From assembly GCA_017617395.1 (NCBI GenBank), contig JAFZWG010000024.1, positions 1-54,231 on the forward strand: DNA of 54,231 nt. The letters are read 5' to 3'. Position numbers and translations under genes: made by a program. Shown in pieces: positions 5,694 through 35,411 of the stretch. Source of the stretch: Lachnospiraceae bacterium (lineage in GTDB: Bacteria > Bacillota > Clostridia > Lachnospirales > Lachnospiraceae). Positions within the stretch are counted from its first letter, which is position 1. Every line of letters begins with the position of its first letter. The notes under the pieces were generated by a model. That model saw nothing but the letters and a program-made list of their open reading frames with translations. It ran no database searches and was not told the origin of the DNA.

Positions 5694-7808
5694 ATGAAAG
5701 ACAACGAAAGAAAAGTGAAACCGATGCGCCGGTTCTTCGGCAAGGAGCATTGGATCGGTATTTCCCTGTTCTTGGCAATCTACGATATCGTAGCGGTATC
5801 GATGAGCTACTTCCTTGCGCTGTGGCTCCGCTTCGATTGCCGTTATTCCATCATTCCTGCGGAATACCTGCGGGCGTGGAAGCTGTTCACGCCGGCCTAT
5901 GTTGTTGTATCTATTTTAATCTTTTATATCTTAAGACTTTATAAGAGTATCTGGCGTTTCGCAAGTTACAGCGAGCTTCTTCGCACCATCATCGCATCGA
6001 TGATCACTGCGGTCGTGCATACCGCGGGCATCACCGCCATGATGCGCTACATGAAGGAGACCTTTGTCCAGAGTCACCGCATGCCCCTCTCGTACTATAT
6101 CATCGGAGCCATCATCCAGTTCTGTCTCGTGCTGGGGATTCGCTTTGCGTACCGTTTTATCCTGTTGATCCGCACGGAAGCCCGCATCGGCAAGCCGAAG
6201 GGTGCAGGCTCAAACGTTATGATCATCGGTGCCGGATCCGCCGGACAGATGATCCTTCGCGACATCAATTCCGCACAGGAAGTCGGCGATCGCGTCGTTT
6301 GTATCATCGATGACAACAAGAACAAGCAGGGGCGCTACATCGACGGCGTGCCTGTTGTCGGCGGCCGCGAGAATATCATGGAGGCGGTCGAGAATTACCA
6401 TGTCCAGAAGATTTTCCTCGCGATTCCTTCGGCAGACATGTCGACGCGCAGGGATATTCTTGCCATCTGTCAGGAGACCGGATGCGAGCTTAAGAACCTG
6501 CCCGGCATGTATCAGCTCGTCAACGGCGATGTCTCCGTCTCGAATCTTAAGAATGTATCCATCGAAGATCTCCTCGGTCGCGATCCGATTCGGGTCGATA
6601 TGGGGGAGGTCTTTTCGTTCCTTCACGGCAAGACCGTGCTCGTCACGGGCGGCGGCGGATCGATCGGCAGCGAGCTATGCCGGCAGGTCGCGGACCATCA
6701 TCCGAAGCGCCTCATCATTTTCGACATCTACGAGAACAATGCATATAACATTCAGCTCGAACTCAGAGAGAAGCATCCCGAGCTCGACCTCGTGACCCTG
6801 ATCGGTTCCGTGCGCGACTCTCGGAAAATGTTCCAGGTCTTCGAGCAGTACAAGCCCGACGTCGTCTATCACGCAGCGGCCCACAAACATGTGCCGCTCA
6901 TGGAGGACAGCCCGTGCGAGGCGATCAAGAACAACGCCATCGGTACCTACAAGACCGCGTATGCGGCCATGGTTCACGGCTGCCAGCGCTTCGTGCTGAT
7001 CTCCACGGACAAGGCGGTTAACCCGACCAACATCATGGGCGCCTCGAAGCGTCTGTGCGAGATGATCATCCAGAGTTTCGACGCGAAGATCAAGGAGGGC
7101 AAGGCCGCGGAGATCCCGCAGCTCTTCACGCACTACACCAAGACGCGCGGCGGCAAGGAGAAGCTTGACCTCACGGCCAACGCCGAATTCTTCCGCAACA
7201 TCAAGACCGAGTTCGTGGCGGTTCGCTTCGGCAACGTCCTCGGCTCGAACGGAAGCGTCATTCCGATCTTCAAAAAGCAGATTGAGAAGGGCGGCCCCGT
7301 CACGGTTACGCATCCGGACATCATCCGCTACTTCATGACGATTCCCGAGGCCGTCAGCCTCGTCCTGCTCGCAGGCACCAACGCCCGCGGCGGTGAGATC
7401 TTCGTCCTCGACATGGGCAGCCCCGTCAAGATCGACACGCTCGCCCGCAACCTGATCCGCCTCTCCGGTCTCAAACCGGATGTGGACATCAAGATCGAAT
7501 ACACGGGCCTTCGCCCCGGCGAGAAGCTATATGAAGAGAAACTCATGGCCGAGGAGGGCATCCGCAAGACGGAAAATGAAAAGATCCACATCGGCTGTCC
7601 GCTCAAGTTCGACATCAACCGCTTCCTCGACGATCTCGACGATCTCATGGATGCGGCGTATGCAAACAGCCGCGACATCAAGCGCCTCGTTGCCGGCATG
7701 GTCAACACCTACCACCAGGAAGGCGTGGATGCGATCCGAAGCGAGACGTACCGGTTGTTGATGAAAGAAATCGGAGAGGCCAACTACGGGGAGGAAAAAG
7801 ACGACTGA
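5694..7808 (+). CDS. Membrane-bound nucleoside-diphosphate-sugar 4,6-dehydratase (PglF/CapD/FlaA1 type)
   Basis: About 704 residues. Four N-terminal membrane helices are followed by a first Rossmann domain (VMIIGAGSAGQM near residue 175) and a second SDR domain with TGGGGSIGSELC near residue 317. The STDKAVNPTNIMGASKR segment is the family signature, where Met replaces the SDR catalytic Tyr. The family converts UDP-GlcNAc to a UDP-4-keto-6-deoxy sugar, the first step to bacillosamine- or FucNAc-type sugars. The start is uncertain: the frame opens with GTG at 5595, but the ATG at 5694, with GGAGGGG 17 bases upstream, matches family length better. It is the first gene of the glycan operon. Confidence 0.92.
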   Translation: MKDNERKVKPMRRFFGKEHWIGISLFLAIYDIVAVSMSYFLALWLRFDCRYSIIPAEYLRAWKLFTPAYVVVSILIFYILRLYKSIWRFASYSELLRTIIASMITAVVHTAGITAMMRYMKETFVQSHRMPLSYYIIGAIIQFCLVLGIRFAYRFILLIRTEARIGKPKGAGSNVMIIGAGSAGQMILRDINSAQEVGDRVVCIIDDNKNKQGRYIDGVPVVGGRENIMEAVENYHVQKIFLAIPSADMSTRRDILAICQETGCELKNLPGMYQLVNGDVSVSNLKNVSIEDLLGRDPIRVDMGEVFSFLHGKTVLVTGGGGSIGSELCRQVADHHPKRLIIFDIYENNAYNIQLELREKHPELDLVTLIGSVRDSRKMFQVFEQYKPDVVYHAAAHKHVPLMEDSPCEAIKNNAIGTYKTAYAAMVHGCQRFVLISTDKAVNPTNIMGASKRLCEMIIQSFDAKIKEGKAAEIPQLFTHYTKTRGGKEKLDLTANAEFFRNIKTEFVAVRFGNVLGSNGSVIPIFKKQIEKGGPVTVTHPDIIRYFMTIPEAVSLVLLAGTNARGGEIFVLDMGSPVKIDTLARNLIRLSGLKPDVDIKIEYTGLRPGEKLYEEKLMAEEGIRKTENEKIHIGCPLKFDINRFLDDLDDLMDAAYANSRDIKRLVAGMVNTYHQEGVDAIRSETYRLLMKEIGEANYGEEKDD

Positions 7809-7851
7809 GAGCGATTCTCTGACGTTGGTCAAGGCAGGAGTGATAAGGACA

Positions 7852-8508
7852 ATGAAAAAAGCATACGACGGAATTTATAACAGGTTTCTTAAGCGCGTGG
7901 TCGGACTTGTGATTGCACTTCCGTTTTTCGTCATCGCGATTCCGATCTACATCATCATCGGAGCTGCGATCCTGATCGAGGACGGATTGCCGGTTTTCTA
8001 CCGGCCGCTGCGCGGAGGTTACAAGAACAAGCCGTTTCGAATTTTCAAGTTCCGTACGATGGTGAAAAATGCAGATAAGATCGGCGGCGGAACAACCGCG
8101 ATGCATGACCCCAGAATCACGAAGGTCGGAGCGGTATTGCGGAAGACAAAGCTGGACGAGACAGCGAACCTGATCAATATTCTGCTCGGAACGATGTCGT
8201 TCATCGGACCTCGCCCGGAACTGTTGAAGTACACAGAGCAGTACGAGGGAGACGAAAAGGAGATTCTGGAGGTTCGTCCCGGCGTGACGGACTTCAGCTC
8301 GATTGAGTTTATTAACCTCGATGAGATCGTCGGCGAGGGAAACGCCGACGAAATGTACGAAAAATACGTCCTTAAGAGAAAGAATGAGCTTCGCATCAAA
8401 TATGCGGAGAGCGTCGGGTTCGGAACCGACTGCAAGATCTTCTTTAAGACAATCGGAAAAGTGTTCCGGAAGGCGTTCGGTTTTGTTTTTAAGAAAGAGC
8501 ATCGTTAA
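7852..8508 (+). CDS. Initiating sugar-phosphate transferase (PglC/WbaP-type polyprenol-phosphate transferase)
   Basis: A 218-residue bacterial sugar transferase. One N-terminal hydrophobic segment (about residues 15-40, probably re-entrant) is followed by PVFYRPLRGG, FRIFKFRTMV and LINILLGTMSFIGPRPEL, the core motifs of the monotopic PglC-type domain. It transfers a sugar-1-phosphate from a UDP-sugar to undecaprenyl phosphate, so it likely starts the repeat unit using the product of the dehydratase pathway. The ATG at 7852 is favoured over an upstream TTG because AAGGA precedes it. It lies 43 bases after the dehydratase. Confidence 0.92.
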   Translation: MKKAYDGIYNRFLKRVVGLVIALPFFVIAIPIYIIIGAAILIEDGLPVFYRPLRGGYKNKPFRIFKFRTMVKNADKIGGGTTAMHDPRITKVGAVLRKTKLDETANLINILLGTMSFIGPRPELLKYTEQYEGDEKEILEVRPGVTDFSSIEFINLDEIVGEGNADEMYEKYVLKRKNELRIKYAESVGFGTDCKIFFKTIGKVFRKAFGFVFKKEHR

Positions 8509-8540
8509 CGGCAACGGGCATGAGACAGGAAGGATGGACA

Positions 8541-9479
8541 ATGGAATATATCACTTTGAAAAACTCGGACATCGTTGTCTCGAGGCTTTGCATGGGTGGT
8601 TGTCCCATGGGCGGCTATGGCTGGGGCGATGTCCAGGAACAGGAGCTTGTGGACGCGGTGCATGCGGCCCTGGACAGCGGTGTGACGTTCTTTGATACGG
8701 CAGATACATACGGGCTCGGCCAAAGCGAGAGAGTTCTCGGAAAGGCCCTCGGCGAGAGGCGAAAGGACGTGATCATCGCCGACAAATTCGGCGTTCGGGC
8801 GGGCAACGGTCCGACCTATTATGACAACAGTCCCGAGTATATCCGGCAGGCAATTGATCTGTCGCTTCGCAATCTCGGCACAGACTATATCGATTTGTAT
8901 CAGGTGCACTACCGCGACGGCAAGACGCCGCTTGCGGACGTGATCGGAGCGCTGGAGGATTTGCAAAAGGCCGGCAAGATTCGCTGCTACGGCCTCTCCA
9001 ACATACACAGCGAGGATTTTGCGGAGATTAAGCCGTTCACAGGAAAGATTGTGAGCGTACAGGATGAGTACAGCCTTGCGTGCCGCAAGAACGAAAAGGA
9101 TCTGGAAACGCTGTACAGCGAGTACCGGATGACGCCGCTGACCTGGGGAAGCCTCGGTCAGGGAATTCTGACCGGCAAATACGACCGCTCGGTGGCATTT
9201 GCCGCGAACGACCGCAGAAGCCGTGACATCTATGTGAATTTTCACGGAGAGAAACTCCTTAAGAACCTCGAGATCGTTGAGGCGATGCGCCCGATTGCGG
9301 AGAGACACGGCAAATCGGTGAGCGCGGTAGCAATCCGGTTCATTCTGGACCGGCTGGAGGGCTCCGTTGTACTGGTCGGCGCAAAGCGGCCGGCACAGAT
9401 TCTCGGCAATGTCGAGGGTCTCTCGTGGAAGCTCGACGAGGAAGAGCTTGCATTGCTTGATCAAGTTTCGAAAGATTGA
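8541..9479 (+). CDS. Aldo/keto reductase
   Basis: A 312-residue NADPH-dependent TIM-barrel reductase. FFDTADTYG carries the catalytic Asp and Tyr, DKFG the Lys and QVHYRD the His of the tetrad. The C-terminal SVVLVGAKRPAQILGNVE region is the usual cofactor-binding loop. GGAAGGA precedes the ATG at 8541. It sits between the initiating transferase and the split transketolase, so it may reduce a sugar or sugar phosphate made for the glycan. The substrate cannot be read from the sequence. Confidence 0.9.
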   Translation: MEYITLKNSDIVVSRLCMGGCPMGGYGWGDVQEQELVDAVHAALDSGVTFFDTADTYGLGQSERVLGKALGERRKDVIIADKFGVRAGNGPTYYDNSPEYIRQAIDLSLRNLGTDYIDLYQVHYRDGKTPLADVIGALEDLQKAGKIRCYGLSNIHSEDFAEIKPFTGKIVSVQDEYSLACRKNEKDLETLYSEYRMTPLTWGSLGQGILTGKYDRSVAFAANDRRSRDIYVNFHGEKLLKNLEIVEAMRPIAERHGKSVSAVAIRFILDRLEGSVVLVGAKRPAQILGNVEGLSWKLDEEELALLDQVSKD

Positions 9480-10511: not shown

Positions 10512-11434
10512 GAGATACATTTGTGCGCACCCTGGTAGAACTGGCGAAAGAGGATCCGAAGATTGAGCTTGTGACCGGCGACCTGGGATTCGGAGTGCTC
10601 AAACCGTTCTGGGAAAAATGCCCGGACCAGTTTACAAACGCCGGTATTGCAGAGCAGAATATGACGACGGTCGCGGCCGGAATGGCACTTGAGGGCAAGA
10701 CCGTGTTTACTTACAGCATCGGGAATTTTCCGACGCTTCGCTGCCTTGAGCAGATTCGTAACGACTGCGCCTATCATGAGGCCAATGTCAAGGTTGTCTG
10801 TGTCGGCGGCGGATTTGTGTACGGCTCGCTCGGAATGAGCCATCAGGCGACCGAGGACATCGCGATCCTCCGCGCGCTCCCCAATGTGATTGTGATGGCG
10901 CCGGCGGATCTCGTTGAGGCGGAGGAGTGCACCAAGGCGCTCGCCCGCACGAAGGGAACGGCCTACCTGCGCCTGGGGCGCGGCGGCGAGAAGCGAATCC
11001 ACGATAAAATCGACAATTTCGAGATCGGCAAGGCGATTCGCGTGTACGAGGGAGAGAGGATTGCCATCTTCTCCACCGGCGCGATCTTTGAGGAAGTCAC
11101 GGCGGCGTACGAGCAGTTGAAAGAGCTGGGGTACAACCCCTGCGTATACACCTTCCCGACCGTGAAGCCGATCGACCGCGAGGTGATCGAGAAGATCGCC
11201 GGGGAGTTCGAATTGATCGTGACCTGCGAGGAGCACAATATTGTCGGCGGCTTCGGCGGTGCGGTTGCCGAGGTTATGGCGGAGATGGGAAGCCGCAAGG
11301 CACGGCTTCTGCGGATCGGCCTGAATGATGAATACAGTGTGCGCGTCGGCAACCAGAAGTACTTAAGACAGCAGTACGGAATGGATGCGACCGCGATTAC
11401 CGATAGAATTGTCCGCGAGGTTTCAGAGAAATGA
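10508..11434 (+). CDS. Transketolase, C-terminal subunit
   Basis: A 308-residue beta half with the pyrimidine-binding domain (NAGIAEQNMTTVAAGMALEG, where the Glu activates thiamine diphosphate) and the C-terminal domain (VTCEEHNIVGGFGGAVAEVM). GGAGGGG precedes the ATG by seven bases. It overlaps the N-terminal subunit by four bases and the next licD-like gene by four bases. Both halves together make one active enzyme of about 650 residues. Confidence 0.92.
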   Translation: MRDTFVRTLVELAKEDPKIELVTGDLGFGVLKPFWEKCPDQFTNAGIAEQNMTTVAAGMALEGKTVFTYSIGNFPTLRCLEQIRNDCAYHEANVKVVCVGGGFVYGSLGMSHQATEDIAILRALPNVIVMAPADLVEAEECTKALARTKGTAYLRLGRGGEKRIHDKIDNFEIGKAIRVYEGERIAIFSTGAIFEEVTAAYEQLKELGYNPCVYTFPTVKPIDREVIEKIAGEFELIVTCEEHNIVGGFGGAVAEVMAEMGSRKARLLRIGLNDEYSVRVGNQKYLRQQYGMDATAITDRIVREVSEK

Positions 11435-12177
11435 GTAACGAAAACGTCACTGTGAAGAGCGTTCAGAAAGAGCTCTATGAGTTGATGATTGTTTTGCATG
11501 AGTATTGCGAGAAGCATGCCATTGACTACAGCCTGACCGGAGGGTCTCTTCTCGGTGCGATCCGGCATCAGGGCTTTATCCCCTGGGATGACGATCTGGA
11601 CATCATGCTCTCGAGAGAGAATTTTGAGAAGTTTGCGGAGTGCTTTGCGAAGGATCCTTCGGACCAGTTCGTTTTCGAGCGTGACCAGTGGGTATACCGC
11701 GCGAGAAAGACGCACAAAACGGAAGGCTTCATCCCGTCCATTGACTTTTTTATCATCGACAAGGCACCGACGGGCAAATTCAAGGGGAAGCTCCAGATGC
11801 TTCGCCTCAAGATGCTGCAGGGAATGCTTCGGAACAACGAGAAAGACGGAAACTATTCTTTTCTGTACCGGGTACTGATCGGCGTGTCGAGCTTCCTCGG
11901 CAAGCTGAGAAACAAAGATAAGATGTTCCGGACCTACGATAAGATTTCTCAGTGGGGACGCAAGGGCAACGGAACCGAGTACGGTATCTTCAACGATCGA
12001 TTCCGCCTGCTCGGTCTGCGGTACGGCGACTGGATCATCAAGGGATACACGAAGCACGCCTTCGAAGAGACGGAATTTGAGATCATCGAGGGGTACGACA
12101 AGTATCTTACGGAACAGTTCGGGGACTACATGCAGCTGCCGCCGGAGCAGGATCGTGTTCCGCAGCATATGTTTTGA
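11431..12177 (+). CDS. LicD family phosphotransferase, copy 1
   Basis: A 248-residue LicD-family protein. The signature YSLTGGSLLGAIRHQGF followed by IPWDDDLDIM lies at about residues 33-58. LicD proteins transfer phosphocholine or similar head groups from CDP/CMP-activated donors to glycans. No signal peptide or clear membrane span is seen, so it acts on the cytosolic face. The start overlaps the transketolase stop (ATGA). Given the AEP genes downstream, AEP or another phospho-substituent is a plausible cargo; the acceptor sugar is unknown. Confidence 0.9.
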   Translation: MSNENVTVKSVQKELYELMIVLHEYCEKHAIDYSLTGGSLLGAIRHQGFIPWDDDLDIMLSRENFEKFAECFAKDPSDQFVFERDQWVYRARKTHKTEGFIPSIDFFIIDKAPTGKFKGKLQMLRLKMLQGMLRNNEKDGNYSFLYRVLIGVSSFLGKLRNKDKMFRTYDKISQWGRKGNGTEYGIFNDRFRLLGLRYGDWIIKGYTKHAFEETEFEIIEGYDKYLTEQFGDYMQLPPEQDRVPQHMF

Positions 12178-12191
12178 TTTCGGAGGAAGAG

Positions 12192-13001
12192 ATGGCGACG
12201 GATATTTCCGCGATACAGGAAGAACTGCGGGTGCTGCTGGAGTATTTTCATAAGCTCTGCACGGAAAATGGCATTTCGTATTCGCTCCACGGAGGGACAT
12301 TGCTCGGAGCAATCCGCGAAAAAGGATTTATCGCATGGGACGACGACGCCGATGTCACGATGGACCGGGCGAACTACGAGCGTTTCTGCGAGCTGATGAA
12401 GACGGCGGAGCTCCCGGCGGAGCTCGGATTTGTCAACGAGAGTCGCTTTCCGCAGTTTGCGATGAAGAGGGTGGGAAAACCTCCGGTGTGGACGGACGTC
12501 TTCGTGTACGATTACATCTCCGAGAAGCCGTTTGCGCGCAAGCTTAAGATTGCGGGGACGAATTTTTTCATCCTTGTAACGCGCCGCATTTCGGACCAGA
12601 AGATGTCCAACAAAAACGGTCTGTACAAAGGCGTTAAGAAGTTCTTGATGAACGCGCTTGTCTACTCGGCACAGATCGTTCCGTACAAATGGCGGCTCGG
12701 GCAGGCGAGATGGTTTATGAAGCGCTTCCCGGGAAAGAAGCAGTTTGTTCATCGCTCGAATGACACGCGGGTGGGCGCAAAGAAGATCCTGCCGGCGGAG
12801 GTGATCCGGGAATACGAGACCATCGATTTTCTCGGTTGTGATGTGATGATCGTGAAGCGCTGGCATGAGGTTTTGGTCAACTCCTACGGCGCGGATTATA
12901 TGACGCCCCGGAAGGACAAGCCGGATGCGATGCATGAGATTACGCTTGCAAAGGAACAAGAGGAAATAGAAGCTTTTTTGTCAAAGCGGAAAAGGGTTTA
13001 G
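12192..13001 (+). CDS. LicD family phosphotransferase, copy 2
   Basis: A 269-residue paralogue with YSLHGGTLLGAIREKGF then IAWDDDADVTM, keeping the metal-binding Asp cluster. The C-terminus (YGADYMTPRKDKPDAMHE) resembles the family end motif. The ATG at 12192 has GGAGG five bases upstream; an in-frame TTG at 12174 overlaps the previous stop but has no ribosome site. It differs strongly from copy 1 in its middle section, suggesting a different acceptor or donor. Confidence 0.9.
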   Translation: MATDISAIQEELRVLLEYFHKLCTENGISYSLHGGTLLGAIREKGFIAWDDDADVTMDRANYERFCELMKTAELPAELGFVNESRFPQFAMKRVGKPPVWTDVFVYDYISEKPFARKLKIAGTNFFILVTRRISDQKMSNKNGLYKGVKKFLMNALVYSAQIVPYKWRLGQARWFMKRFPGKKQFVHRSNDTRVGAKKILPAEVIREYETIDFLGCDVMIVKRWHEVLVNSYGADYMTPRKDKPDAMHEITLAKEQEEIEAFLSKRKRV

Positions 13002-14291
13002 ATGATGTTGACGGAAAATGTCGGAAAAAGTAACGGGTTGTTGACATTGCTCACCCTCTTTCTGATGACCTTCAGCGTATACGCAGATTTCGGTATACGG
13101 CGATCTTACGGTTATTTGGCGATTCTGGCGGTAGCGATGGGGCTGATGGTGTATCACAGATACGTCAGCCCGATTTCCCGTTTTAAGGTATGGTATTGGA
13201 TGATGGCGATTCCGGGGGTGTTCTTCTCGCTTCTTCCGTCCTCCTACAAGTCCGATAACACCATCGCCATCAGCATCTACATGATCATTGCCGGAATTTT
13301 CGTCGTTCTCGCCCGGGTGGATCTTCGGGAAGGAAAGCGCGTGCTGAAGATCATTGAGATATCTTCCGTCGTGTTTTCCGTGTACATCATTGCCGTAAAA
13401 ATCTTTCCGGCATTATACTGGAACGGCATTGCCCGGTTTATCAGCAGTTACTCGAGAGAATCGGCGGCCGAGCTGGCAAAGCAGGGCTACGGCATTCCGA
13501 TCGGAGACTCGATCACGTTTGCGGATTACGTTATCGCAATGGCCGTTCTCGGCCGGATATCGCGGGTGCTGTTTTCGAAGATGAAGATGACGGCTTCCTT
13601 TTTCGTGCAGATGGGATTAAACCTTGTCGCAATGTTCTTTGAAAACCGTCGATCGGAGATTCTTTGCCTGGCGCTCACTGTGTTTGTGGTGTTTTTGCTT
13701 TCGCTCGACGCAAAGCATCTGCTGGAGTTTTTGCGTCGCGTCCTCTGGTTTGTCGCGATTGCGGCGGTGATCGTTCTCGTTGTCGTTATTCTGTACCGGA
13801 ACGGTCAGTTGGGACGTTATGAAGGATTGATCAGGAAAGTTTTTCTGAAAGATACGAGCGGGGCGGATGTGTCCGGCGGACGTCTGGAGCTGTGGGCGAT
13901 AGCATGGGGATTGTTTTTAAAGAATCCTTTCCTGGGAATCGGCTGGGAGCGGTTCATGGCGTACAATACGTATCACCATGATGTACATAATACGTATCTG
14001 CAGTGGCTCTGCGAGACGGGAATTATCGGATTTACCCTGATTTTTGTTCCGACACTTGTGTTGCTTTTGATGTCCCTGCGCCGCGCAAAGAAGTTGATCG
14101 CGGATCGTTCCGCCAATGCGACGGTGGTCGCGATGGCTGTCGTCGGTTTCGGAATACAGTTCTTTTTCTTCGCTGTCAATGTTATCGACCCGGCGTATTA
14201 CCACCTGAATTATTTCTGCTTTTTCGGAATTGCGATAATCCTTTCGGAGTACTCGTATCGTTTGTACGCCGAATTGTTGCCGGGGGAGTGA
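13002..14291 (+). CDS. O-antigen polymerase/ligase-like membrane protein (Wzy/WaaL type)
   Basis: A 429-residue polytopic protein with about ten to twelve hydrophobic segments. The segment GRLELWAIAWGLFLKNPFLG followed by GIGWERF and HNTYLQWLCETGIIGF is the O-antigen ligase/polymerase signature (large extracytoplasmic loop with Arg and His). In Gram-positive loci such proteins polymerise repeat units outside the membrane. The ATG directly follows the licD stop. It pairs with the flippase next door as Wzy/Wzx. Confidence 0.88.
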   Translation: MMLTENVGKSNGLLTLLTLFLMTFSVYADFGIRRSYGYLAILAVAMGLMVYHRYVSPISRFKVWYWMMAIPGVFFSLLPSSYKSDNTIAISIYMIIAGIFVVLARVDLREGKRVLKIIEISSVVFSVYIIAVKIFPALYWNGIARFISSYSRESAAELAKQGYGIPIGDSITFADYVIAMAVLGRISRVLFSKMKMTASFFVQMGLNLVAMFFENRRSEILCLALTVFVVFLLSLDAKHLLEFLRRVLWFVAIAAVIVLVVVILYRNGQLGRYEGLIRKVFLKDTSGADVSGGRLELWAIAWGLFLKNPFLGIGWERFMAYNTYHHDVHNTYLQWLCETGIIGFTLIFVPTLVLLLMSLRRAKKLIADRSANATVVAMAVVGFGIQFFFFAVNVIDPAYYHLNYFCFFGIAIILSEYSYRLYAELLPGE

Positions 14292-20378: not shown

Positions 20379-20407
20379 TTGACAAAGGTTCATCGGTGTT
20401 GTATTAT
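20379..20407 (+). promoter_or_regulatory. Promoter of the ABC importer/aepX unit
   Basis: -35 TTGACA (20379-20384), 17-base spacer and -10 TATTAT (20402-20407), about 47 bases before the binding-protein ATG. It makes the phosphonate genes independently transcribed. Confidence 0.82.
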
Positions 20408-25246: not shown

Positions 25247-25265
25247 CAATACAGGGAGGAGAACT

Positions 25266-26012
25266 GTGGCGGAAAAGTATTTGATTCTCTCGGACATTCA
25301 CGGAAATGTCAGCGCGTTCGACGCGGTCCTTGCGGACTGCGCGGGCGAGGACTTCGCCGGGATCATTTTGCTCGGGGACGATATCGACTACGGAATGCGT
25401 TCGAACGAGATCATTCGGAAAATGATCGCGCTCAAGGAGAACGAATGGAAGGACAAGGTCCTGGTCAATATCTGGGGAAACCACGAGAAGCTCGTCGTCG
25501 ACAAGGATCTGGAGAGGCTTTCGACGGACCGCGGGCGCGTCATGGCGGCGTACACCGCGCGCCAGTTGACGCCGGAGTCGGTGGAGTATATCCGAAACGA
25601 TATGAACCGTGAGGGAATTCAGGAGTTCGAGATCGGCGGGTTTAAATGCCTTGCGGTACACGGATCCCTGGAGGATCACTACTGGAAGGCGATCATGCCG
25701 GACAATCTCCGCGGAGAGTACGCCGAATACGACTTTGTCTTCGGCGGACATTCGCATTATCCGCATGTTTTCGCAAAATTTTACCCGGTCGAGAATCCGG
25801 AACTTCGGAACAAAAAGGCGGTTACGTTTGTGAACCCCGGTTCCGTCGGACAGCCGCGGAACCAGAATCCGTATGCGCAGTACGCGGTGCTTTCGCTGCC
25901 CGCGAAGCGTGTGGAGTTGCGGGCTGTGGAGTACGATGTCGCGTACGAACAGTCGCTGTTCCCGGAGGAGATTGACCCCTTTTACAAGGAGAGGCTGACC
26001 CGCGGCGTGTAG
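25266..26012 (+). CDS. Calcineurin-like metallophosphoesterase
   Basis: A 248-residue phosphoesterase. SDIHGN, GDDIDYG, WGNHEK and GGHSHYP supply the two-metal site. The length and layout match the YfcE/MJ0936 group acting on phosphodiesters or nucleotides. The GTG start at 25266 has GGAGGA five bases upstream. It sits between aepX and a surface protein. A role in removing a phosphate or hydrolysing a nucleotide-activated phosphonate is possible, but the substrate is unknown. Confidence 0.9.
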   Translation: MAEKYLILSDIHGNVSAFDAVLADCAGEDFAGIILLGDDIDYGMRSNEIIRKMIALKENEWKDKVLVNIWGNHEKLVVDKDLERLSTDRGRVMAAYTARQLTPESVEYIRNDMNREGIQEFEIGGFKCLAVHGSLEDHYWKAIMPDNLRGEYAEYDFVFGGHSHYPHVFAKFYPVENPELRNKKAVTFVNPGSVGQPRNQNPYAQYAVLSLPAKRVELRAVEYDVAYEQSLFPEEIDPFYKERLTRGV

Positions 26013-27874: not shown

Positions 27875-27910
27875 GTAATAAATTATTCTGTTTTGAAAGG
27901 CGGAGAAAGA

Positions 27911-28921
27911 ATGAAGAAATTGTATGCAATCAGCGGTGTAACCGGTATGACCGGAAATGAGCTGGTTCGCCAGATCCTGATCGACGGCAGCGAGGACCGG
28001 ATTCTCGGTTTTGACAACTTTTACGCATCCTCCATCGACACGGTGGCGGATCACATCGATGATCCCAGATTTGAGTTCTTTGAGTATGACATCAACAATG
28101 CGGAGCAGATGGCGGATTTTGAGGCGCGGATTCGCGCGATTGCCGGAAACTACGATGAGGTGATCTACATCAACTGCGCGGCGGTTGTTCATACGGAGCA
28201 TTTTTACCATGTGTACGAGACCTTCGAGACGAATGTCGAGGGTATGAACAATTTCCTGCAGCAGGCGATCCGCGTGGGTGCGCAGAAGTATATCAACTGC
28301 TCGACCTCCGAGGTGTACTCCATGAATTCGTGGAACGAGAACGGCGGTGTCCGCGAGGACGATTACCTCACGATGGCCGTCGCCGAGCACAGTCAACGCA
28401 CGAGCTACGCGACCGGCAAGCTCCTCACTGAATTTTTCATGAAGGACGCCGTGGATGAGGGGAAGATCAAGGGCTGCTCGATCCGTTTTGCCAATGTCTA
28501 CAGCAAGGATGAGAGATACCCGAAACACATCATTCCGTTCATCATCAGCAGCTTCCGCGACAACGGCAAGGTTGTTCTTTTGGAGAACTCCAGAAAGAAC
28601 CGCAGAACCTTCCTCAACAACTACGACAGCTGCAGCGCCGTACTGGCTTTGGCAAACACCGACTCCGCCCTCGACGGAACGGTTTACAATGTCGCTACCG
28701 ACGAGGAGATTTCCATCATCGATCTCGCGAAAATGTGCGCGGCGAAGATGGGCATCACCGACCCCGTGATCGAGTTTAACGGTTACCGCGCATCGGATCC
28801 GGAGCGCAGACTTCTCTCGACAGAGAAGATCCGCACACGCACTTCCTGGAGACCGGCGGTAGGCCTTGAGAAGGGTCTCGGCGAGTGCATTGAAAACTAT
28901 CTGAAACAGAATCGGAAGTGA
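27911..28921 (+). CDS. NAD(P)-dependent epimerase/dehydratase (extended SDR)
   Basis: 336 residues. The cofactor loop SGVTGMTGNELVRQ is at the N-terminus, NCSTSEVYS holds the catalytic Ser and TSYATGK the YxxxK pair. The C-terminal substrate domain (YRASDPERRLLSTEKIR) is that of nucleotide-sugar epimerases/dehydratases. GGCGGAG precedes the ATG at 27911. It heads a tight group with the next nucleotidyltransferase and dehydrogenase and with aepY. The substrate is not identifiable. Confidence 0.9.
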   Translation: MKKLYAISGVTGMTGNELVRQILIDGSEDRILGFDNFYASSIDTVADHIDDPRFEFFEYDINNAEQMADFEARIRAIAGNYDEVIYINCAAVVHTEHFYHVYETFETNVEGMNNFLQQAIRVGAQKYINCSTSEVYSMNSWNENGGVREDDYLTMAVAEHSQRTSYATGKLLTEFFMKDAVDEGKIKGCSIRFANVYSKDERYPKHIIPFIISSFRDNGKVVLLENSRKNRRTFLNNYDSCSAVLALANTDSALDGTVYNVATDEEISIIDLAKMCAAKMGITDPVIEFNGYRASDPERRLLSTEKIRTRTSWRPAVGLEKGLGECIENYLKQNRK

Positions 28922-28925
28922 TGAA

Positions 28926-29684
28926 ATGAAGGCAGCAATAATTACGGTGGCCGGCATTTCCAGCCGGTTTAACGAGGGAATTCCGGAGCAGAACAAGGAA
29001 CTGAAGGCGATCTATCCGAAGGAAGACCGCGAGGCGACACTGCTTCATCATCTCCTCGAAAAATGCTCCTTCGCGGACCGCATTGCGGTCGTGGGGGGAT
29101 ACAGATTCGACGAGCTGAAGGCGTACTGCGAAGAGCTTGAGCCCGAATACAGGAACAAGATTACGCTCGTTGAGAACACGCATTACAGCGACCTTGCGTC
29201 GGGATACAGCCTGTATCTCGGCCTTGCGGAGGTTCTCCGGGAGGATGTTTCGGAGGTGCTCTTTATCGAGGGCGACCTGGATGTCGACGACGCGTCGTTT
29301 CATGCGGTTGTGAACGCGGAGAAGAGTGTTTTAACCTACACCTTCGAACCGATCTACGCAAACAAGGCCGTGGTGCTTTACCAAAATGCGGACGGCGAGT
29401 ACCGCTATGCATTCAACAGCAGCCACGGGCTTTTGTCGATCGACGAGCCGTTTTCGTGCATTTTAAACTCCGGGCAGACCTGGAAGTTCACCGACGTCGA
29501 CGCGCTTCGCAAGGCAAACGAGCGCTTCTTCGCGGAGGACAAGGGGGGAACAAACCTCATAATTGTCCGCAATTACCTGGAGCTCGCGCCGGATGTTGAG
29601 CTCGTCGGGCTTCACCGGTGGACCAACTGCAACACGAGAGAGGACTATCGAAAGATTCGTAAATACTGGGAGGATGAGAAATGA
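28926..29684 (+). CDS. Nucleotidyltransferase-like protein (LicC/MobA superfamily)
   Basis: A 252-residue GT-A-fold nucleotidyltransferase. The N-terminal VAGISSRFNEGIPEQNKEL is a variant of the LAAGxxSRF...K nucleotide loop, and FIEGDLDVDD carries the metal Asp. Middle segments (NTHYSDLASGYSLYLG) resemble the LicC NN-x-SL motif region. It begins four bases after the SDR stop, and its stop overlaps the next start (ATGA). It may activate a phosphonate or sugar phosphate; CTP or another nucleotide is not distinguishable. Confidence 0.78.
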   Translation: MKAAIITVAGISSRFNEGIPEQNKELKAIYPKEDREATLLHHLLEKCSFADRIAVVGGYRFDELKAYCEELEPEYRNKITLVENTHYSDLASGYSLYLGLAEVLREDVSEVLFIEGDLDVDDASFHAVVNAEKSVLTYTFEPIYANKAVVLYQNADGEYRYAFNSSHGLLSIDEPFSCILNSGQTWKFTDVDALRKANERFFAEDKGGTNLIIVRNYLELAPDVELVGLHRWTNCNTREDYRKIRKYWEDEK

Positions 29685-30868
29685 AATCGTTGAAGGAACG
29701 TCTCGCGATTGTCGAGAAGCATGTCAAAGAGCAAAATGTGAAGGTGATGATCATCGGCCTCGGCAGTGTCGGCGCTTATCTGCTGGATTATCTGCTCAGC
29801 ATGAACGATCCGACGCTCGGCATCGTTGTCGTGGGACGCGACAGCGCGAAGATGCAGACGAAGGTCAATATCGCCCGCGTTGCGGGACTGATCCGCGGCG
29901 TCAACAAGTCGAAGATCGAGGTCGAGGGAGACGTCAATCTGGAGGATATCGATTCCATCGAACGGGCGATCGCAAAGCACAAGCCGGATTTCATTGTGAA
30001 TTCCAGCCGCGCATACCCCGGCCTTAAGTACGGCAGCATTTCCTGGAGCAATGTGCGCGCCTACGGAATCTGGAGCCCTTTGGCCATTCGTTTTACGAAA
30101 AATGTTATGGAAGCCTGCGAGAGAGCGGCGGCCGATGCAGTGGTTATCAACACCTCGTACTCCGACGCGGTCATCCCGTGGCTTAAGAGCGCCGGCAAGG
30201 CGTATCCCGATTTCGGCTCGGGCAACCTGAACCATCTGGTTCCTCGCATGAAGTTTGCGATTGCGCAGATGCTCGGAGTCGGGGACTTCTGGAATGTCGA
30301 TGTGATGTTTGCCGCAGGGCACTTCCACGATGTATGTATCAGCAAGGAGGGCCAGACGGAGGGCATCAATCTTCCGCTTAAGATTTACTATAAGGGCGAG
30401 GAGAAGCAGCTTTCGCACGAGGCAATCTTTGCAGCCTGCAAGATCCCGATGCCCGTCGATCAGACGCGCAACATGATGAATGCCTCCTCGAATTATCAGA
30501 TCATCTCGGCGGTGATTTCGGCGATCCGCACCGGCAAGAACCAGCGGGTGTTCACGCCCGGATTTGCCGGTGAACTCGGAGGATATCCGGTCACGGTCGG
30601 CTATTTCGACGGCGCGCTCGATGCACGCATCGACGAGTCGGTATTTTCCTACGAGGTTATGAACAAAGCGAACCGCGCATCGATGGCGCTCGACGGCGTT
30701 GAGGATGTGACGGACGGCACCCTGATCTACACGGACGGCCTGATCGCGAAGGCGCAGAAGGCGTTCGGCGTGACGCTTCCGAAACACGTGCCTTTCGCGA
30801 AGATCGAGGAGACGGCAAAGTTCATCATCGAGGAGATCATTCTCCCGCAGACCGAGGGAAAAAACTGA
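29681..30868 (+). CDS. Rossmann-fold dehydrogenase, saccharopine dehydrogenase-like
   Basis: 395 residues. VMIIGLGSVGAYLLDYLL is an N-terminal GxGxxG dinucleotide-binding fold, followed by VNSSRAYPGLKYGSISWSN and a large C-terminal domain. The overall plan recalls saccharopine dehydrogenase-like oxidoreductases, but no diagnostic catalytic motif was recognised. It is coupled to the preceding nucleotidyltransferase (four-base overlap) and lies 41 bases before aepY. A role in oxidising or reducing a phosphonate or nucleotide-linked intermediate is suggested only by context. Confidence 0.72.
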   Translation: MKSLKERLAIVEKHVKEQNVKVMIIGLGSVGAYLLDYLLSMNDPTLGIVVVGRDSAKMQTKVNIARVAGLIRGVNKSKIEVEGDVNLEDIDSIERAIAKHKPDFIVNSSRAYPGLKYGSISWSNVRAYGIWSPLAIRFTKNVMEACERAAADAVVINTSYSDAVIPWLKSAGKAYPDFGSGNLNHLVPRMKFAIAQMLGVGDFWNVDVMFAAGHFHDVCISKEGQTEGINLPLKIYYKGEEKQLSHEAIFAACKIPMPVDQTRNMMNASSNYQIISAVISAIRTGKNQRVFTPGFAGELGGYPVTVGYFDGALDARIDESVFSYEVMNKANRASMALDGVEDVTDGTLIYTDGLIAKAQKAFGVTLPKHVPFAKIEETAKFIIEEIILPQTEGKN

Positions 30869-30909: not shown

Positions 30910-32031
30910 ATGAAAGTAGACAGATTTACCGAGATACTCGGAGCTGATTTTTATACCGGTGTGCCGGACAGCAAGCTGAAGGCGCTCTGCAACTATCTGA
31001 TGGACCGCTACGGAATCGATCCGCACCATCATGTCATCGCGGCAAATGAGGGAAACTGCACCGCGCTGGCAGCGGGCTATCATCTTGCCACGGGCAAGGT
31101 TCCGGTAGTTTACATGCAAAACAGCGGCGAGGGCAACGTGATTAATCCTGTTGCGTCGCTTTTGAACGACAAGGTCTACGCCATCCCTGTCATCTTCATC
31201 GTCGGCTGGCGCGGAGAGCCCGGGGTGCATGATGAGCCGCAGCACATTTACCAGGGCGAGGTGACGATCAAGCTTCTCGAGGACATGGGAATCGAGTCGT
31301 TCGTCGTCGACAAGGAGACGACGGAGGAAGAGCTTGTCGCGGTGATGGAGAAATTCCGCGGAATTCTTGCGGAGGGCAAGGATGTCGCATTTGTCATCCG
31401 CGGAGGCGGACTTTCGGATGCGCCGAAGGTAGAGTATAAAAACGATAACACGATGGTCCGAGAGGAGATCATCAAGCATATCGTGGCTGCAAGCGGGGAG
31501 GACCCGATCGTCTCCACCACCGGCAAGGCGAGCCGCGAGCTCTTTGAGACGAGAACGGCGAACGGCCAGAGCCACAAGTACGATTTCCTGACGGTGGGGT
31601 CCATGGGACACAGTTCTTCCATCGCCCTCGGCGTTGCGATCAACAAGCCGGAGCAGAGAATCTGGTGCGTGGACGGCGACGGCGCGGTGCTCATGCATAT
31701 GGGCGCCATGGCGGTAATCGGAACGATTCGCCCGAAGAATCTGATTCATATCGTGATTAACAACGCCTCCCACGAGACTGTCGGAGGCATGCCTACCGTG
31801 GCGGGTTCCGTCAATCTGGTAGCCGTGGCGAAGGCGTGCGGATACCCCAATGTCGTGTCCGTGGACAGCTTCGAGGCGCTTGACCGCGAGCTTGCGAACG
31901 CAAAAGCGGGAGACGAGCTCTGCCTGATCGAAGTAAAATGCTCCATCGGAGCCCGTGAGGATCTGGGAAGACCTACGGTGTCGGCGATCGAAAACAAAGA
32001 AAACTTCATGAACTATCTGAAGGAGCTTTGA
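30910..32031 (+). CDS. aepY: Phosphonopyruvate decarboxylase
   Basis: A 373-residue thiamine diphosphate enzyme that decarboxylates phosphonopyruvate to phosphonoacetaldehyde, pulling the unfavourable PEP mutase step forward. The pyrimidine domain has AANEGNCTALAAGYHLATGK (Glu activates thiamine diphosphate) and GWRGEPGVHDEPQH. The pyrophosphate domain has TVGSMGHSSSIALGVA and CVDGDGAVLMHMGAMAVIG. These match Ppd/AepY closely, and the length is typical. It is the second pathway enzyme after aepX, with the transaminase on the opposite strand downstream. Confidence 0.95.
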   Translation: MKVDRFTEILGADFYTGVPDSKLKALCNYLMDRYGIDPHHHVIAANEGNCTALAAGYHLATGKVPVVYMQNSGEGNVINPVASLLNDKVYAIPVIFIVGWRGEPGVHDEPQHIYQGEVTIKLLEDMGIESFVVDKETTEEELVAVMEKFRGILAEGKDVAFVIRGGGLSDAPKVEYKNDNTMVREEIIKHIVAASGEDPIVSTTGKASRELFETRTANGQSHKYDFLTVGSMGHSSSIALGVAINKPEQRIWCVDGDGAVLMHMGAMAVIGTIRPKNLIHIVINNASHETVGGMPTVAGSVNLVAVAKACGYPNVVSVDSFEALDRELANAKAGDELCLIEVKCSIGAREDLGRPTVSAIENKENFMNYLKEL

Positions 32032-32049
32032 TTCTGCGGAGGGTTAACG

Positions 32050-32946
32050 ATGATTTCAGTAATCGTGCCTATCTACAATGTGGAACCGTATGTCCGGCAA
32101 TGCGTCGAAAGTCTGCTTGCACAAACGGGGGCGGATATTGAAATCCTTTTGATCGATGACGGATCGACGGACCAAAGCGGTGTGATAGCGGATGAATATA
32201 CGGACGCGCGGGTTCGGGTCTTCCACCTGCAAAACGGCGGCCTTTCCGCGGCGCGCAATTTCGGAATCGAACACGCGCGCGGGGAGTGGCTGATGTTTGT
32301 GGACGGCGATGACTATGTTCTGCCGGAGTTCTGCTCCGCACCTCTTGCTCTTGCGCAGGAGACGGCAGCAGACCTGGTCGCTTTCCGGTATAGCAAATAT
32401 CAGGACGGGTCCTTGAATCCGGTTCCTCTTCCGCAGTGGCGTGAAGGGGAGGCCGACTGGTGCACGGCCGTCGATGCGGCGACCGAACTGGCGTGGAACA
32501 AGCTGTACCGAAAGAGCCTGTTCGAAGGAATCCGGTATCCGGTCGGAAAAGTATATGAGGACATCGCCACGACGTACAAACTGGTCCACGCGTCCCGGAA
32601 AAGTGTATTTTCCGACAAAAATCTGTATGTGTACCGGAAACGTCCGGGCAGTATCTCGGTAAGCAAAACGAAAGAGCGCCTGTATCAGGGGCTTGAGGCC
32701 GCACGCCTTCGCAGGGAGGACTTAAAGAAGTGGGGCTACACCGGGAATCCGGACAATTTCCCTGAGTTCCGGGCCTGGGATATCATTGTTCTTGTCGACC
32801 CGTGCGATGACGAGAAGTATCGACTGGCGGTAGAGGAGTTTGCAAAGAATAAACGGGCACCCGAATGGATGAACAGGAAACAGAAGGTTGCATTTTTCCT
32901 CTGGAAACGTTGCAAGCCGCTGTTTCGTCTGGTGCGGAAAAAATAA
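32050..32946 (+). CDS. Family 2 glycosyltransferase
   Basis: A 298-residue GT-A fold transferase. ISVIVPIYNVEPYVRQCVES, IDDGSTDQSG, SAARNFGIEHARGEW and FVDGDDYV (DxD-type metal site) are classic GT2 motifs. No membrane span is seen, so it acts in the cytosol on lipid-linked sugar. GGAGG precedes the ATG. It is the only obvious elongating glycosyltransferase in the locus besides the initiating enzyme, which implies a short repeat unit or further transferases elsewhere. A shared terminator follows. Confidence 0.93.
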   Translation: MISVIVPIYNVEPYVRQCVESLLAQTGADIEILLIDDGSTDQSGVIADEYTDARVRVFHLQNGGLSAARNFGIEHARGEWLMFVDGDDYVLPEFCSAPLALAQETAADLVAFRYSKYQDGSLNPVPLPQWREGEADWCTAVDAATELAWNKLYRKSLFEGIRYPVGKVYEDIATTYKLVHASRKSVFSDKNLYVYRKRPGSISVSKTKERLYQGLEAARLRREDLKKWGYTGNPDNFPEFRAWDIIVLVDPCDDEKYRLAVEEFAKNKRAPEWMNRKQKVAFFLWKRCKPLFRLVRKK

Positions 32947-32960
32947 ACCCAAAAAACAAG

Positions 32961-32994
32961 CGGCTGCTTTCGCAAGTGAAAGCAGCCGTTTTCT
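32961..32994. terminator. Bidirectional terminator between convergent units
   Basis: Eleven-base-pair stem CGGCTGCTTTC / GAAAGCAGCCG, flanked by an A-run on the left and TTTTCT on the right. It ends both the plus-strand phosphonate unit and the minus-strand operon. Confidence 0.9.
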
Positions 32995-33008
32995 GTTCGG
33001 TATCGAAA

Positions 33009-34306: not shown

Positions 34307-34334
34307 GAAGGTCTCCTCTTAACAGTGTCGGAAG

Positions 34335-35411
34335 TTACATTCCGAAGTACGATTTGATTTCTGCGATCAGATTGTCATAGTCCGCAAAGCTCAGATCGCC
34401 AACATGAGCGACGCGGATACTTCTCTTACCCAGTTCTCCGCCTACAGGATTGACCATAATGTGACGTTCATCCTTGAGAAAAGCGAAGAATTCCATTGCA
34501 ATGGATTTTTCAAAACGAATTGGCGAGATGGCATTTGAGAGAGGGTAATCCGGAAGATAAATGGGAAGACCTTTAATGCTGCTTCGGAAGTACTCGCAAC
34601 GGTCTTTCACTTCCTTAAGCCGCGTTTCGACGCCTGCTTCATCAATTCTGTGCAGCATGTCGTTAAGCTCAAAACATACGCCTACGGCAGGAGTGAACGG
34701 AGTCTGACCGCGCTTCATGTTGATCAGATAGTCTTTAAACTCAAAATACAGGGACTGAACCGATGTGTTTTCCACCTTGTTAACCATGCGGGGGCTCAGC
34801 GTTACGATGGAGAGGCCGGGCGCCAGGCAGAGACCTTTCTGCGAGCTGACGATGGTAGCGTCGATATGATTCTCCTCCATCTTGTACGGGTCAGCGAGGA
34901 AGGAACTGATAGCGTCAACAACCAGAAGAAGATTGTTACGGTCACAGAAATCACGAATTATATTGATGTCATATAACTGTCCCGTATAAGTCTCATCGAT
35001 GTTTACCAGCAGACCAGTGAACGGTTTGCCGTCGAACTGTGAAAAATGGTCGGCCGTGAGAGTTTCGTCCGGGCCGAGGCGAAGAACTTCGCAGGGAATG
35101 TGATGGATATTGCAAATATTTACAAATCGCTCACCGAACGTTCCACCACAGATGATCAGAAGTTTATCGTTTTGATCAAAGCAGTTAATTACCGTTGCTT
35201 CCATCGCGCCGCTGCCGGAGGCGGTTAAGAAAACTGCTTTAGAATCTTCACTAGCAAACTGAAGCTTTTTGATCAGCCGCTCGTTGTCCAGCATGAGTTC
35301 CGAAAATTCCGGAGTCCGGAAATACGGAACCACCTTCGATCGAACGTCAAGTGTATGCCGATACATTTGCGTCGGACCGATCGTAAACAATTTGTAATCA
35401 TCAAGTCGCAT
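34335..35411 (-). CDS. aepZ: 2-aminoethylphosphonate transaminase-like class V aminotransferase
   Basis: A 358-residue fold-type I PLP enzyme. The N-terminal FTIGPTQMYRHT matches the (x)GPGP-type start of AEP and serine-pyruvate transaminases. ASGSGAMEATVIN binds the cofactor phosphate, VVDAISSF holds the PLP Asp and SSQKGL carries the Schiff-base Lys192. It would convert phosphonoacetaldehyde to 2-aminoethylphosphonate, completing the aepX-aepY pathway. GGAGGAG precedes the ATG. It is the first gene of the minus-strand operon, whose base composition looks lower in GC than the rest of the locus. Confidence 0.9.
   Translation of the reverse strand: MRLDDYKLFTIGPTQMYRHTLDVRSKVVPYFRTPEFSELMLDNERLIKKLQFASEDSKAVFLTASGSGAMEATVINCFDQNDKLLIICGGTFGERFVNICNIHHIPCEVLRLGPDETLTADHFSQFDGKPFTGLLVNIDETYTGQLYDINIIRDFCDRNNLLLVVDAISSFLADPYKMEENHIDATIVSSQKGLCLAPGLSIVTLSPRMVNKVENTSVQSLYFEFKDYLINMKRGQTPFTPAVGVCFELNDMLHRIDEAGVETRLKEVKDRCEYFRSSIKGLPIYLPDYPLSNAISPIRFEKSIAMEFFAFLKDERHIMVNPVGGELGKRSIRVAHVGDLSFADYDNLIAEIKSYFGM

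Follow-up and report, generated by a model that had tools for sequence, protein, structure and literature searches.

What does a surface-glycan locus attach to its polymer when it can make a phosphonate but the usual last enzyme of the route is replaced? We considered this question for a locus at about 5694..35411 of a Lachnospiraceae bacterium contig (GCA_017617395.1, JAFZWG010000024.1). The whole stretch analysed, 54,231 nt, is called the window; its own genome is 85% complete, and the family-model scan in the window covered 40 proteins. The original prediction was a complete aminoethylphosphonate (AEP) route feeding a glycan that carries AEP or a derivative. As judged from sequence, family scores, synteny and relatives give good support to a surface-glycan locus of the LicD/Wzx type in which PEP mutase (PepM) and phosphonopyruvate decarboxylase (Ppd) make a phosphonate. 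That this phosphonate is AEP, made here by a complete route, is not supported: no AEP transaminase over cut-off exists in the window's own genome. With four other enzymes in place of the usual third-step one, the decoration is unlikely to be AEP.

Family models recovered the predicted PepM, Ppd, LicD, flippase, Wzy-family and initiating-transferase genes, but not the AEP transaminase. The glycan genes lie on the forward strand, starting with a membrane-type PF02719 nucleotide-sugar dehydratase (5595..7808, 389 bits) and the initiating sugar-phosphate transferase (Bac_transf, PF02397; 7825..8508, 165 bits against a cut-off of 27). They are followed by an aldo-keto reductase (8520..9479, Pfam 221 bits) and a transketolase split into an N half (9489-10511) and a C half (10508-11434), both assigned by Pfam. 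The three LicD proteins exceed the PF04991 cut-off of 22.6 with 102 bits (11431..12177), 101 bits (12174..13001) and 176 bits (15780..16679; 76% identical in locus L031), and no other LicD gene was found in the window's genome. Since phosphocholine and polyol phosphates are further substrates of the LicD family, the triplet alone is not evidence for phosphonate transfer, and an IspD-like cytidylyltransferase (16698-17465), overlapped by an SDR (17443-18465), points to CDP-polyol as another LicD substrate. Between the second and third LicD genes stand the Wzx-like flippase (14304..15758, PF01943, 84 bits against 28) and a Wzy_C protein (13002..14291, PF04932, 63 bits against 32). The latter had been called a polymerase, and it does exceed its cut-off, but the family is described as O-Antigen ligase and the protein may be either polymerase or ligase. 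This part ends with two LicC-like nucleotidyltransferases (18465-19358 and 19355-20308), both extended at the N terminus; in the second the extension is recognised as a winged helix.

The phosphonate genes follow on the same strand. PepM (23948..25246) scores 412 bits with TIGR02320 (cut-off 320) and carries EDKTGLKKNS at residues 260-269, the EDKx5NS motif being present in all 96 PepM rows of our alignment; Ppd (30910..32031) scores 464 bits with TIGR03297 (cut-off 313). Both claims of the original prediction are thus borne out. The N-terminal domain of PepM is a PF01467 cytidylyltransferase with HxGH, which makes the protein a fusion of the Fom1 type, and the best solved relative of this domain is 5x3d (E 1.4e-25; listed as PEP phosphomutase), which we take to be the Fom1 cytidylyltransferase. 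The product of that enzyme is CMP-hydroxyethylphosphonate (PMC6697681), and by this precedent the fused domain may make CMP-2-hydroxyethylphosphonate. Only two positions in PepM and its cytidylyltransferase track the cassette described below, so the fused domain bears no sign of a changed substrate. A PntC-like nucleotidyltransferase had also been predicted, but the fused domain is not of the PF12804 type called PntC. The PF12804 cut-off is exceeded by the window proteins at 18465, 19355 and 33009; the protein at 19355-20308, the one separate nucleotidyltransferase compared with solved structures, is closer to LicC (1jyk, E 1.5e-27) than to Tde-PntC (6pd1, 8.8e-10).

Between PepM and Ppd lie four genes, which we call the cassette: a metallophosphoesterase (25236..26012, Pfam, with a start at 25266 that agrees with its relatives in a 12-row alignment), an extended SDR (27893..28921, Pfam, 13-row alignment), a DUF6564 nucleotidyltransferase (28926..29684, PF20202, 310 bits) and a saccharopine-dehydrogenase-like oxidoreductase (SacDH; 29681..30868, PF03435). 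An anchored beta-helix surface protein identified by the family scan (26027..27874) is inserted after the first of them, and the operon of the sister species G189 has no room for it. A GT2 glycosyltransferase (32050..32946, Pfam 130 bits) is the final operon gene, and a terminator-like hairpin with an 11-pair stem, an inverted repeat assigned to neither strand, separates the operon from a convergent one (32949..33000; such sites in the region do not outnumber those in shuffles). The earlier reading mentioned neither these four genes nor the importer at 20454-23946.

The cassette recurs, and it excludes the aminotransferase. Among 95 PepM loci, many of them from draft MAGs, it was found in 14, an aminotransferase in 69, neither in 12 and both in 0; for the 61 loci of at least 18 kb the counts are 10, 45, 6 and 0. 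The aminotransferase bait was the distant protein of the window (21-29% identity), so another transaminase family in these loci could be missed. The order PepM, metallophosphoesterase, SDR, DUF6564, SacDH, Ppd is kept in 10 of the 14 cassette loci. At the genome level, 13 of 14 distinct cassette genomes, including the window's own, have no AEP transaminase over cut-off (sets of 5 and 11, with G189 = L031 and G052 = L039 taken as shared, and leaving aside the genome that holds partial locus L035), while 13 of the 16 non-cassette PepM genomes tested have one; G283, G092 and G188 have neither. The exception, G800, keeps the two apart: its locus L046 consists of HTH-NTase, amino-acid permease, AEP transaminase, a second PepM and Ppd, whereas L090 is a seven-gene operon of HTH-NTase, the four cassette genes, PepM and Ppd, with four non-glycan genes upstream. 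On the PepM tree (96 rows) the cassette label needs 4 changes, of which at least 3 are forced by the starred branches; three changes may alternatively reflect a single gain with two losses. Among 397 family genomes, 5 encode full-length DUF6564, the same 5 encode full-length SacDH, and all of them also have PepM and Ppd. Of the 10 full cassette loci 9 carry LicD, as against 3 of the 45 full aminotransferase loci. The original claim that the locus is much richer than its precedents holds insofar as the cassette stands in the transaminase's place.

On balance, we favour the reading in which the operon 20454-32946 would make and activate a phosphonate other than AEP, the cassette providing a different third step and LicD transferring the product to the glycan. 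By their equivalog scores, PepM would convert PEP to phosphonopyruvate and Ppd would convert this to phosphonoacetaldehyde, on which the cassette would act in place of an AEP transaminase. The SacDH-like enzyme and the SDR may then reduce or reductively modify phosphonoacetaldehyde, the simplest product being 2-hydroxyethylphosphonate or a compound derived from it. As a LicC-like nucleotidyltransferase, DUF6564 would form the CMP conjugate from CTP, and the metallophosphoesterase could serve trimming or quality control. Following the LicC/LicD precedent, one LicD would move the phosphonate from CMP to the lipid-linked glycan, which Wzx would export, while the importer before PepM could salvage environmental phosphonate. 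In the searches made, no relative of the cassette enzymes with a known phosphonate substrate was found. Against this reading, four genes would be too many if the whole step were a simple reduction. Moreover, the known hydroxyethylphosphonate route uses the Fe-alcohol dehydrogenase PhpC (PMC9381506), a family with no member among the 40 window proteins scanned. More tentatively, and with somewhat less than half of our belief, the cassette could be an undescribed branch after phosphonoacetaldehyde that is exchangeable with the AEP transaminase and leads to a head group new to bacterial glycans, such as AEP with an N-substituent or a phosphonate altered while attached to CMP, with DUF6564 as its own cytidylyltransferase.

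The alternative that survives best, although we consider it unlikely, is that AEP is imported from the surroundings, with the LicC-like HTH-NTases activating it and LicD attaching it to the glycan; this could run beside de novo synthesis. A promoter-like site (20379..20407, forward strand, 11/12 matches in a consensus scan that gave 18 sites against 11.5 +/- 3.7 expected in shuffles) precedes an ABC importer consisting of a binding protein (20454-21452), an ATPase (21521-22345) and a permease (22342-23946), with one base between permease and PepM. The subunits match the putative AEP-importer models PhnS2/T2/U2 (TIGR03261/03265/03262) best, with 175, 314 and 372 bits, but all fall under the equivalog cut-offs of 393, 458 and 593. 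Three of the 10 full cassette loci and the partial locus L036 have the importer, but 0 of 45 full aminotransferase loci do. AEP is reportedly present in rumen protozoa, to go by the title of a 1959 paper, which would offer a source if the window is of rumen origin, as its relatives suggest. On the other hand, the importer is absent from 7 of the 10 full cassette loci, and import leaves PepM, Ppd and the cassette unexplained.

Still less probable is the earlier view that PepM, Ppd and the aminotransferase at 34335-35411 make AEP, with PntC-like activation and LicD transfer. This class-V protein is distantly related to AEP transaminases (6pd1, E 6e-21), and it shares a block on the reverse strand with a nucleotidyltransferase (33009-33731) and a DUF2284 protein (33728-34306), which recalls the PntC-AEPT fusion Tde1415 (PMC6697681). 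However, it scores only 138 bits with TIGR03301 (cut-off 361) and 91 with TIGR02326 (cut-off 401), and its nearest solved relative is 3f0h (E 2e-91), named only 'Aminotransferase'. In our tree, which took in 30 of the 69 PepM-locus aminotransferases and has flagged long branches, it groups with proteins of PepM-less genomes in a clade of 19 rows (support 99), apart from the clade of PepM-locus aminotransferases (support 100). Orthologues were found in 19 other family genomes, with PepM over cut-off in 0 of 19 (weak matches only in one, G293), and no match was found in the sister species, although the PepM operon is kept there. The protein was accordingly judged not to be the AEP transaminase of the PepM route, being below cut-off, in a separate clade and without PepM linkage. 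With low GC3 (0.52-0.56), opposite strand and absence from the sister species, the block 33009-35411 is judged a separate, probably recently inserted cassette outside the phosphonate route.

That the four-gene cassette supplies the glycan with a nucleotide sugar or polyol and merely travels with PepM, the phosphonate being finished by unlinked genes, would suit its LicD-rich loci, the nearest solved relatives of the SDR (dTDP-glucose dehydratases and UDP-glucuronate decarboxylases among them) and the LicC match of the DUF6564 profile (E 0.003), but its place between PepM and Ppd, its exclusion of the aminotransferase, the non-glycan surroundings of L090 and the constant company of PepM make it improbable. 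Within the favoured reading of a non-AEP phosphonate, a specific form has SacDH coupling phosphonoacetaldehyde to an amine to give an N-substituted AEP. Carboxynorspermidine synthase couples aspartate semialdehyde to an amine, and it is matched weakly by 6 of 13 SacDH members (best E 1.5e-4), all 13 of which match the PF03435 NADP-binding domain; but similarity to known families is confined to that part (residues 22-109 of the window protein) or very weak, and we regard this form as doubtful.

A cassette replacing the AEP transaminase in several separate PepM lineages suggests that a second type of head group exists, and DUF6564, the SacDH-like protein and the cassette SDR, which had no assigned role, gain a concrete candidate pathway. 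As the cassette is also carried by the cultured strain Eubacterium ruminantium ATCC 17233 (L040), its product can be looked for directly. When compared with known systems, the locus resembles the capsule genes aepXYZ of Bacteroides fragilis, which encode PepM, phosphonopyruvate decarboxylase and an AepZ-type transaminase, in having the first two in a polysaccharide locus, but it has no AepZ-type transaminase over cut-off. The proposed logic of import, CTP activation and LicD transfer is that of the lic loci (LicB/LicC/LicD), whereas the window operon would make its own C-P compound, and no choline kinase was found among the 40 proteins scanned. With Fom1 of fosfomycin biosynthesis the locus shares the N-terminal PF01467 cytidylyltransferase fused to PepM, but the scanned proteins include no radical-SAM methylase, epoxidase or Fe-alcohol dehydrogenase, and the context is a surface glycan instead of an antibiotic. 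The Pnt clusters of Treponema denticola, Atopobium rimae and Olsenella uli (PMC6697681) are alike in their PepM-nucleotidyltransferase fusion, further nucleotidyltransferases nearby, LicD or glycosyltransferases and cell-surface destination; they encode AEP production, whereas the window has, instead of a transaminase over cut-off, four other genes.

The window covers bases 1-54231 of contig C78 in a draft genome of 2.34 Mb (97 contigs, 85% complete), and 25 plus-strand genes lie across 5595-32946, most of them separated by fewer than 25 bases or sharing an overlap. The surface-glycan part (5595-20308, plus strand) contains a membrane dehydratase, an initiating transferase, an aldo-keto reductase, a split transketolase, two LicD genes, a Wzy_C protein, Wzx, a further LicD, an IspD-like enzyme with an SDR, and two LicC-like nucleotidyltransferases. 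The initiating transferase, three LicD proteins and Wzx-like flippase named in the original prediction are present in this part; its Wzy_C protein would be a polymerase or a ligase. The PepM part (20454-32946, plus strand) consists of an ABC importer, PEP mutase (PepM) fused to a cytidylyltransferase domain (CyTase), a metallophosphoesterase, a beta-helix surface protein, an SDR, a DUF6564 protein, a saccharopine-dehydrogenase-like protein (SacDH), phosphonopyruvate decarboxylase (Ppd) and a GT2 protein. It is preceded by a promoter-like site with 11 of 12 matches, such sites numbering 18 in the region versus 11.5 +/- 3.7 in shuffles, and is closed by a hairpin with a stem of 11 pairs, although the region holds no more terminator-like sites than shuffles do. 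On the minus strand, a block at 33009-35411 carries a nucleotidyltransferase (NTase), a DUF2284 protein and a class-V aminotransferase. Rfam and tRNA scans of the whole window gave no match.

Several further features were noted. An aldo-keto reductase and the split transketolase stand ahead of two LicD genes (8520-11434), and the IspD-like enzyme, which scores 141/166 bits with the D-ribitol-5-phosphate cytidylyltransferase model, is paired with the SDR at 16698-18465; one LicD might use a CDP-polyol made by this pair. The beta-helix surface protein inside the PepM operon (26027-27874) has a proline/threonine-rich repeat stretch, and there is no room for it at that spot in the same-genus sister species G189. 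Directly after the locus, 35776-41316 encodes a 1846-aa protein with beta-helix matches and 6.6 copies of a 321-base tandem repeat.

A complete aminoethylphosphonate (AEP) route had been proposed for this locus, and only its first two steps stood. The scores of PepM and Ppd are above the respective equivalog cut-offs, and a predicted path from PEP through phosphonopyruvate to phosphonoacetaldehyde is shown by homology. The aminotransferase at 34335-35411, which had been taken as AEP-type, scores 138 bits against a cut-off of 361 for the AEP-transaminase model. Among solved structures it is closest to 3f0h (E 2e-91), an entry that bears just the name 'Aminotransferase', with named or known AEP transaminases far behind at E 6e-21 and weaker. 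A search of 299 family genomes gave orthologues (39-71% identity) in 18 genomes other than its own, plus a fragment in a 19th; none of these 19 genomes has a PepM over the cut-off, and G293 alone gave weak matches (96 bits or less). When 51 aminotransferases were placed on a tree, which carried a long-branch warning, the window protein fell inside a 19-row clade with those orthologues (support 99), apart from the aminotransferases of PepM loci (support 100), of which 30 out of 69 were included. The AEP-transaminase reading of the third step was rejected on the score, the separate clade and the PepM-less genomes of the orthologues. Kinship with two proteins of 159 and 144 bits (G017:C20 and G188:C17) was likewise discarded, as these are outside the clade and have no adjoining NTase or DUF2284.

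Third-position GC is 0.52-0.56 in the block versus 0.71-0.75 in PepM, the four cassette genes and Ppd, and the aminotransferase has no match in G189, which retains the PepM operon. Because of the PepM-less orthologues, the separate clade, the low third-position GC and the absence from G189, the block at 33009-35411 is most likely an independent and recently inserted gene set. Within the short flanks available, an NTase like that at 33009-33731 adjoins the orthologue in 8 of the 19 genomes; by-eye counts gave another nucleotidyltransferase (starting VITYGT; the one scanned matches PF01467) in 6 and LicD nearby in 5. The recurrence of a 3f0h-type aminotransferase beside nucleotidyltransferases, and sometimes LicD, here and at the orthologue loci of PepM-less genomes (L192-L210) was recorded as a separate observation; the set may represent a second decoration cassette, for an amine free of C-P.

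Loci around PepM, 110 at first and more later, were set against 40 genes of the window. The closest PepM relative among the best 80 of 574 is that of L031 (97% identity), taken to be the sister species G189. It was found that four genes, namely the metallophosphoesterase, SDR, DUF6564 and SacDH (the cassette), recur with PepM and Ppd in the closest relatives; this comparison with related genomes was one of the checks set out at the start. The order PepM, four cassette genes, Ppd is kept in 10 of 14 cassette loci. Among 95 PepM loci, a biased sample because it was built around the PepM of the window, with some short contigs and many MAGs, the cassette is present in 14 and an aminotransferase in 69; no locus has both, and 12 have neither one. 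One isolate of the cassette type is Eubacterium ruminantium ATCC 17233 (L040), and one of the aminotransferase type is Schwartzia succinivorans DSM 10502 (L078). These loci comprise the best 80 of 574 relatives, 18 family-genome stretches and L175, minus L107, L124, L125 and L126, whose PepM is identical to another row. For the 61 of these loci that are at least 18 kb long, the counts are 10 with the cassette, 45 with an aminotransferase, 6 with neither and 0 with both. L035, at a contig end, was labelled cassette on metallophosphoesterase and SDR alone, and L175 on three genes, the fourth being mostly on another contig. Aminotransferases were detected at the locus level with the window's protein, a distant bait to which those of PepM loci have 21-29% identity. 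The short loci L001-L030 were left unclassed, and longer stretches were used for 19 of those 29 other genomes; full-length DUF6564 or SacDH is absent from the unclassed PepM genomes G046, G279, G029, G139, G087, G022, G262, G036, G089, G163 and G123. A permease shared by aminotransferase loci was considered and dropped, being present in just 2 of 45 full loci.

The same pattern is seen at the genome level. TIGR03301 was searched in 21 PepM genomes (20 of the 31 family PepM genomes, plus G328), and 13 exceed the cut-off; in all 13 a copy lies no more than about 3 kb from PepM. None of the five cassette genomes among the 21 exceeds it, two of them being 100% complete; the model is also absent over cut-off from three non-cassette PepM genomes (G283, G092 and G188). 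Eleven cassette loci among the best 80 of 574 relatives were traced to their genomes, and 10 have no AEP-transaminase match at E 1e-20 or better. The exception, G800, has its match at its second PepM locus, L046. In all, 13 of 14 distinct cassette genomes are without an AEP transaminase over cut-off (L031 and L039 were taken as already counted, and the L035 genome is outside the set). L046 and the cassette locus L090 belong to one MAG (records CANRIL010000004 and CANRIL010000015). The former reads HTH-NTase, amino-acid permease, aminotransferase, PepM, Ppd, and the latter HTH-NTase, metallophosphoesterase, SDR, DUF6564, SacDH, PepM, Ppd; the two PepM proteins pair as sisters on the PepM tree (93, not starred). 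This pair is the clearest case for exchange of aminotransferase and cassette. The four genes scanned upstream of L090 encode a choloylglycine-hydrolase-family protein, an AI-2E-family transporter, an acetyltransferase and an HTH protein, none of them glycan genes. On this 96-row tree, which was built by a quick method with SH-aLRT as its only support and has several long branches, 4 changes of the cassette label are needed, and starred branches force at least 3 of these; three changes may represent one gain and two losses. From the locus counts, the genome test, the L046/L090 pair and these label changes, we conclude that the aminotransferase behaves as an alternative to the cassette at a single pathway position.

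Counting only DUF6564 matches above 280 bits, 5 of 397 family genomes have full-length DUF6564, and these same five are the ones with full-length SacDH (647-798 bits). All five have PepM, which shares a contig with the four cassette genes in four of them and is spread with the cassette over two contig ends in G328; all have Ppd, which is on a different contig from PepM in G177 and G328. Matches of at most 36.2 bits in 28 further genomes, mostly over about 100 of 230 positions, were set aside although 22 of these genomes exceed Pfam's own DUF6564 cut-off of 25, as were partial SacDH matches (23.5 bits or less) in nine. In a phylum-wide draw of 398 genomes, strong DUF6564 was found in the window's own genome only, with matches of at most 38.5 bits in nine others, four over the Pfam cut-off. 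Carriage on mobile elements was rejected: DUF6564 had no match in the plasmids or phages searched, nor SacDH in the viral contigs searched.

The cassette would convert phosphonoacetaldehyde to a product other than AEP. Its SDR keeps the N-terminal glycine motif and the YxxxK pair, and may act on a nucleotide-bound compound, since dTDP-glucose dehydratases and UDP-glucuronate decarboxylases are among the solved structures related to it. DUF6564 keeps the AGxxxRF start and the EGDL motif, with LicC as the top solved relative of its profile (E 0.003); it is proposed as the cassette's own putative cytidylyltransferase. The saccharopine-dehydrogenase NADP domain was matched in 13 of 13 SacDH members and carboxynorspermidine synthase weakly in 6 of 13, both matches being confined to residues 22-109 in the window's protein. 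CyTase-PepM proteins of aminotransferase loci are 53-81% identical to the window's (median 78%), and a cassette-specific CyTase signature was not obtained: only PepM-protein positions 74 and 284 go with the cassette, neither exclusively. Because of this closeness across locus types and the two tracking positions, sequence does not reveal which substrate the CyTase uses.

By inference from the lic pathway, LicD would transfer the phosphonate to the glycan. A home-made profile found LicD in 9 of 10 full cassette loci, most of them mutually related and not independent, versus 3 of 45 full aminotransferase loci, and these counts fit such a transfer. A cassette-specific LicD was rejected, as there is no common orthologue and the best match from one cassette locus to another has about 28-51% identity, the sister species (76%) excepted. 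At L122:4819-18510 in G177, a locus that combines PepM, three LicD genes and the cassette is immediately preceded by two flagellin genes (PF00669/PF00700), which suggests a phosphonate-decorated flagellin there; Ppd is on another contig. AEP on flagellin is reported for Clostridioides difficile, a species for which a PepM survey was negative (PMC8861647).

Several elements of the locus have known counterparts. The best relative of the fused CyTase is 5x3d, which we take to be the Fom1 CyTase. According to PMC6697681, Fom1 makes CMP-hydroxyethylphosphonate, PepM-PF01467 fusions are 23.6% of PepM, and LicC-like enzymes beside PepM, as well as LicD or glycosyltransferases in PepM neighbourhoods, are already published. 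The searches made of the open-access literature gave no description of the four-gene cassette and no paper on 'DUF6564', though the cassette may be in print elsewhere. There is a moderate chance that the cassette constitutes a new branch of phosphonate biosynthesis.
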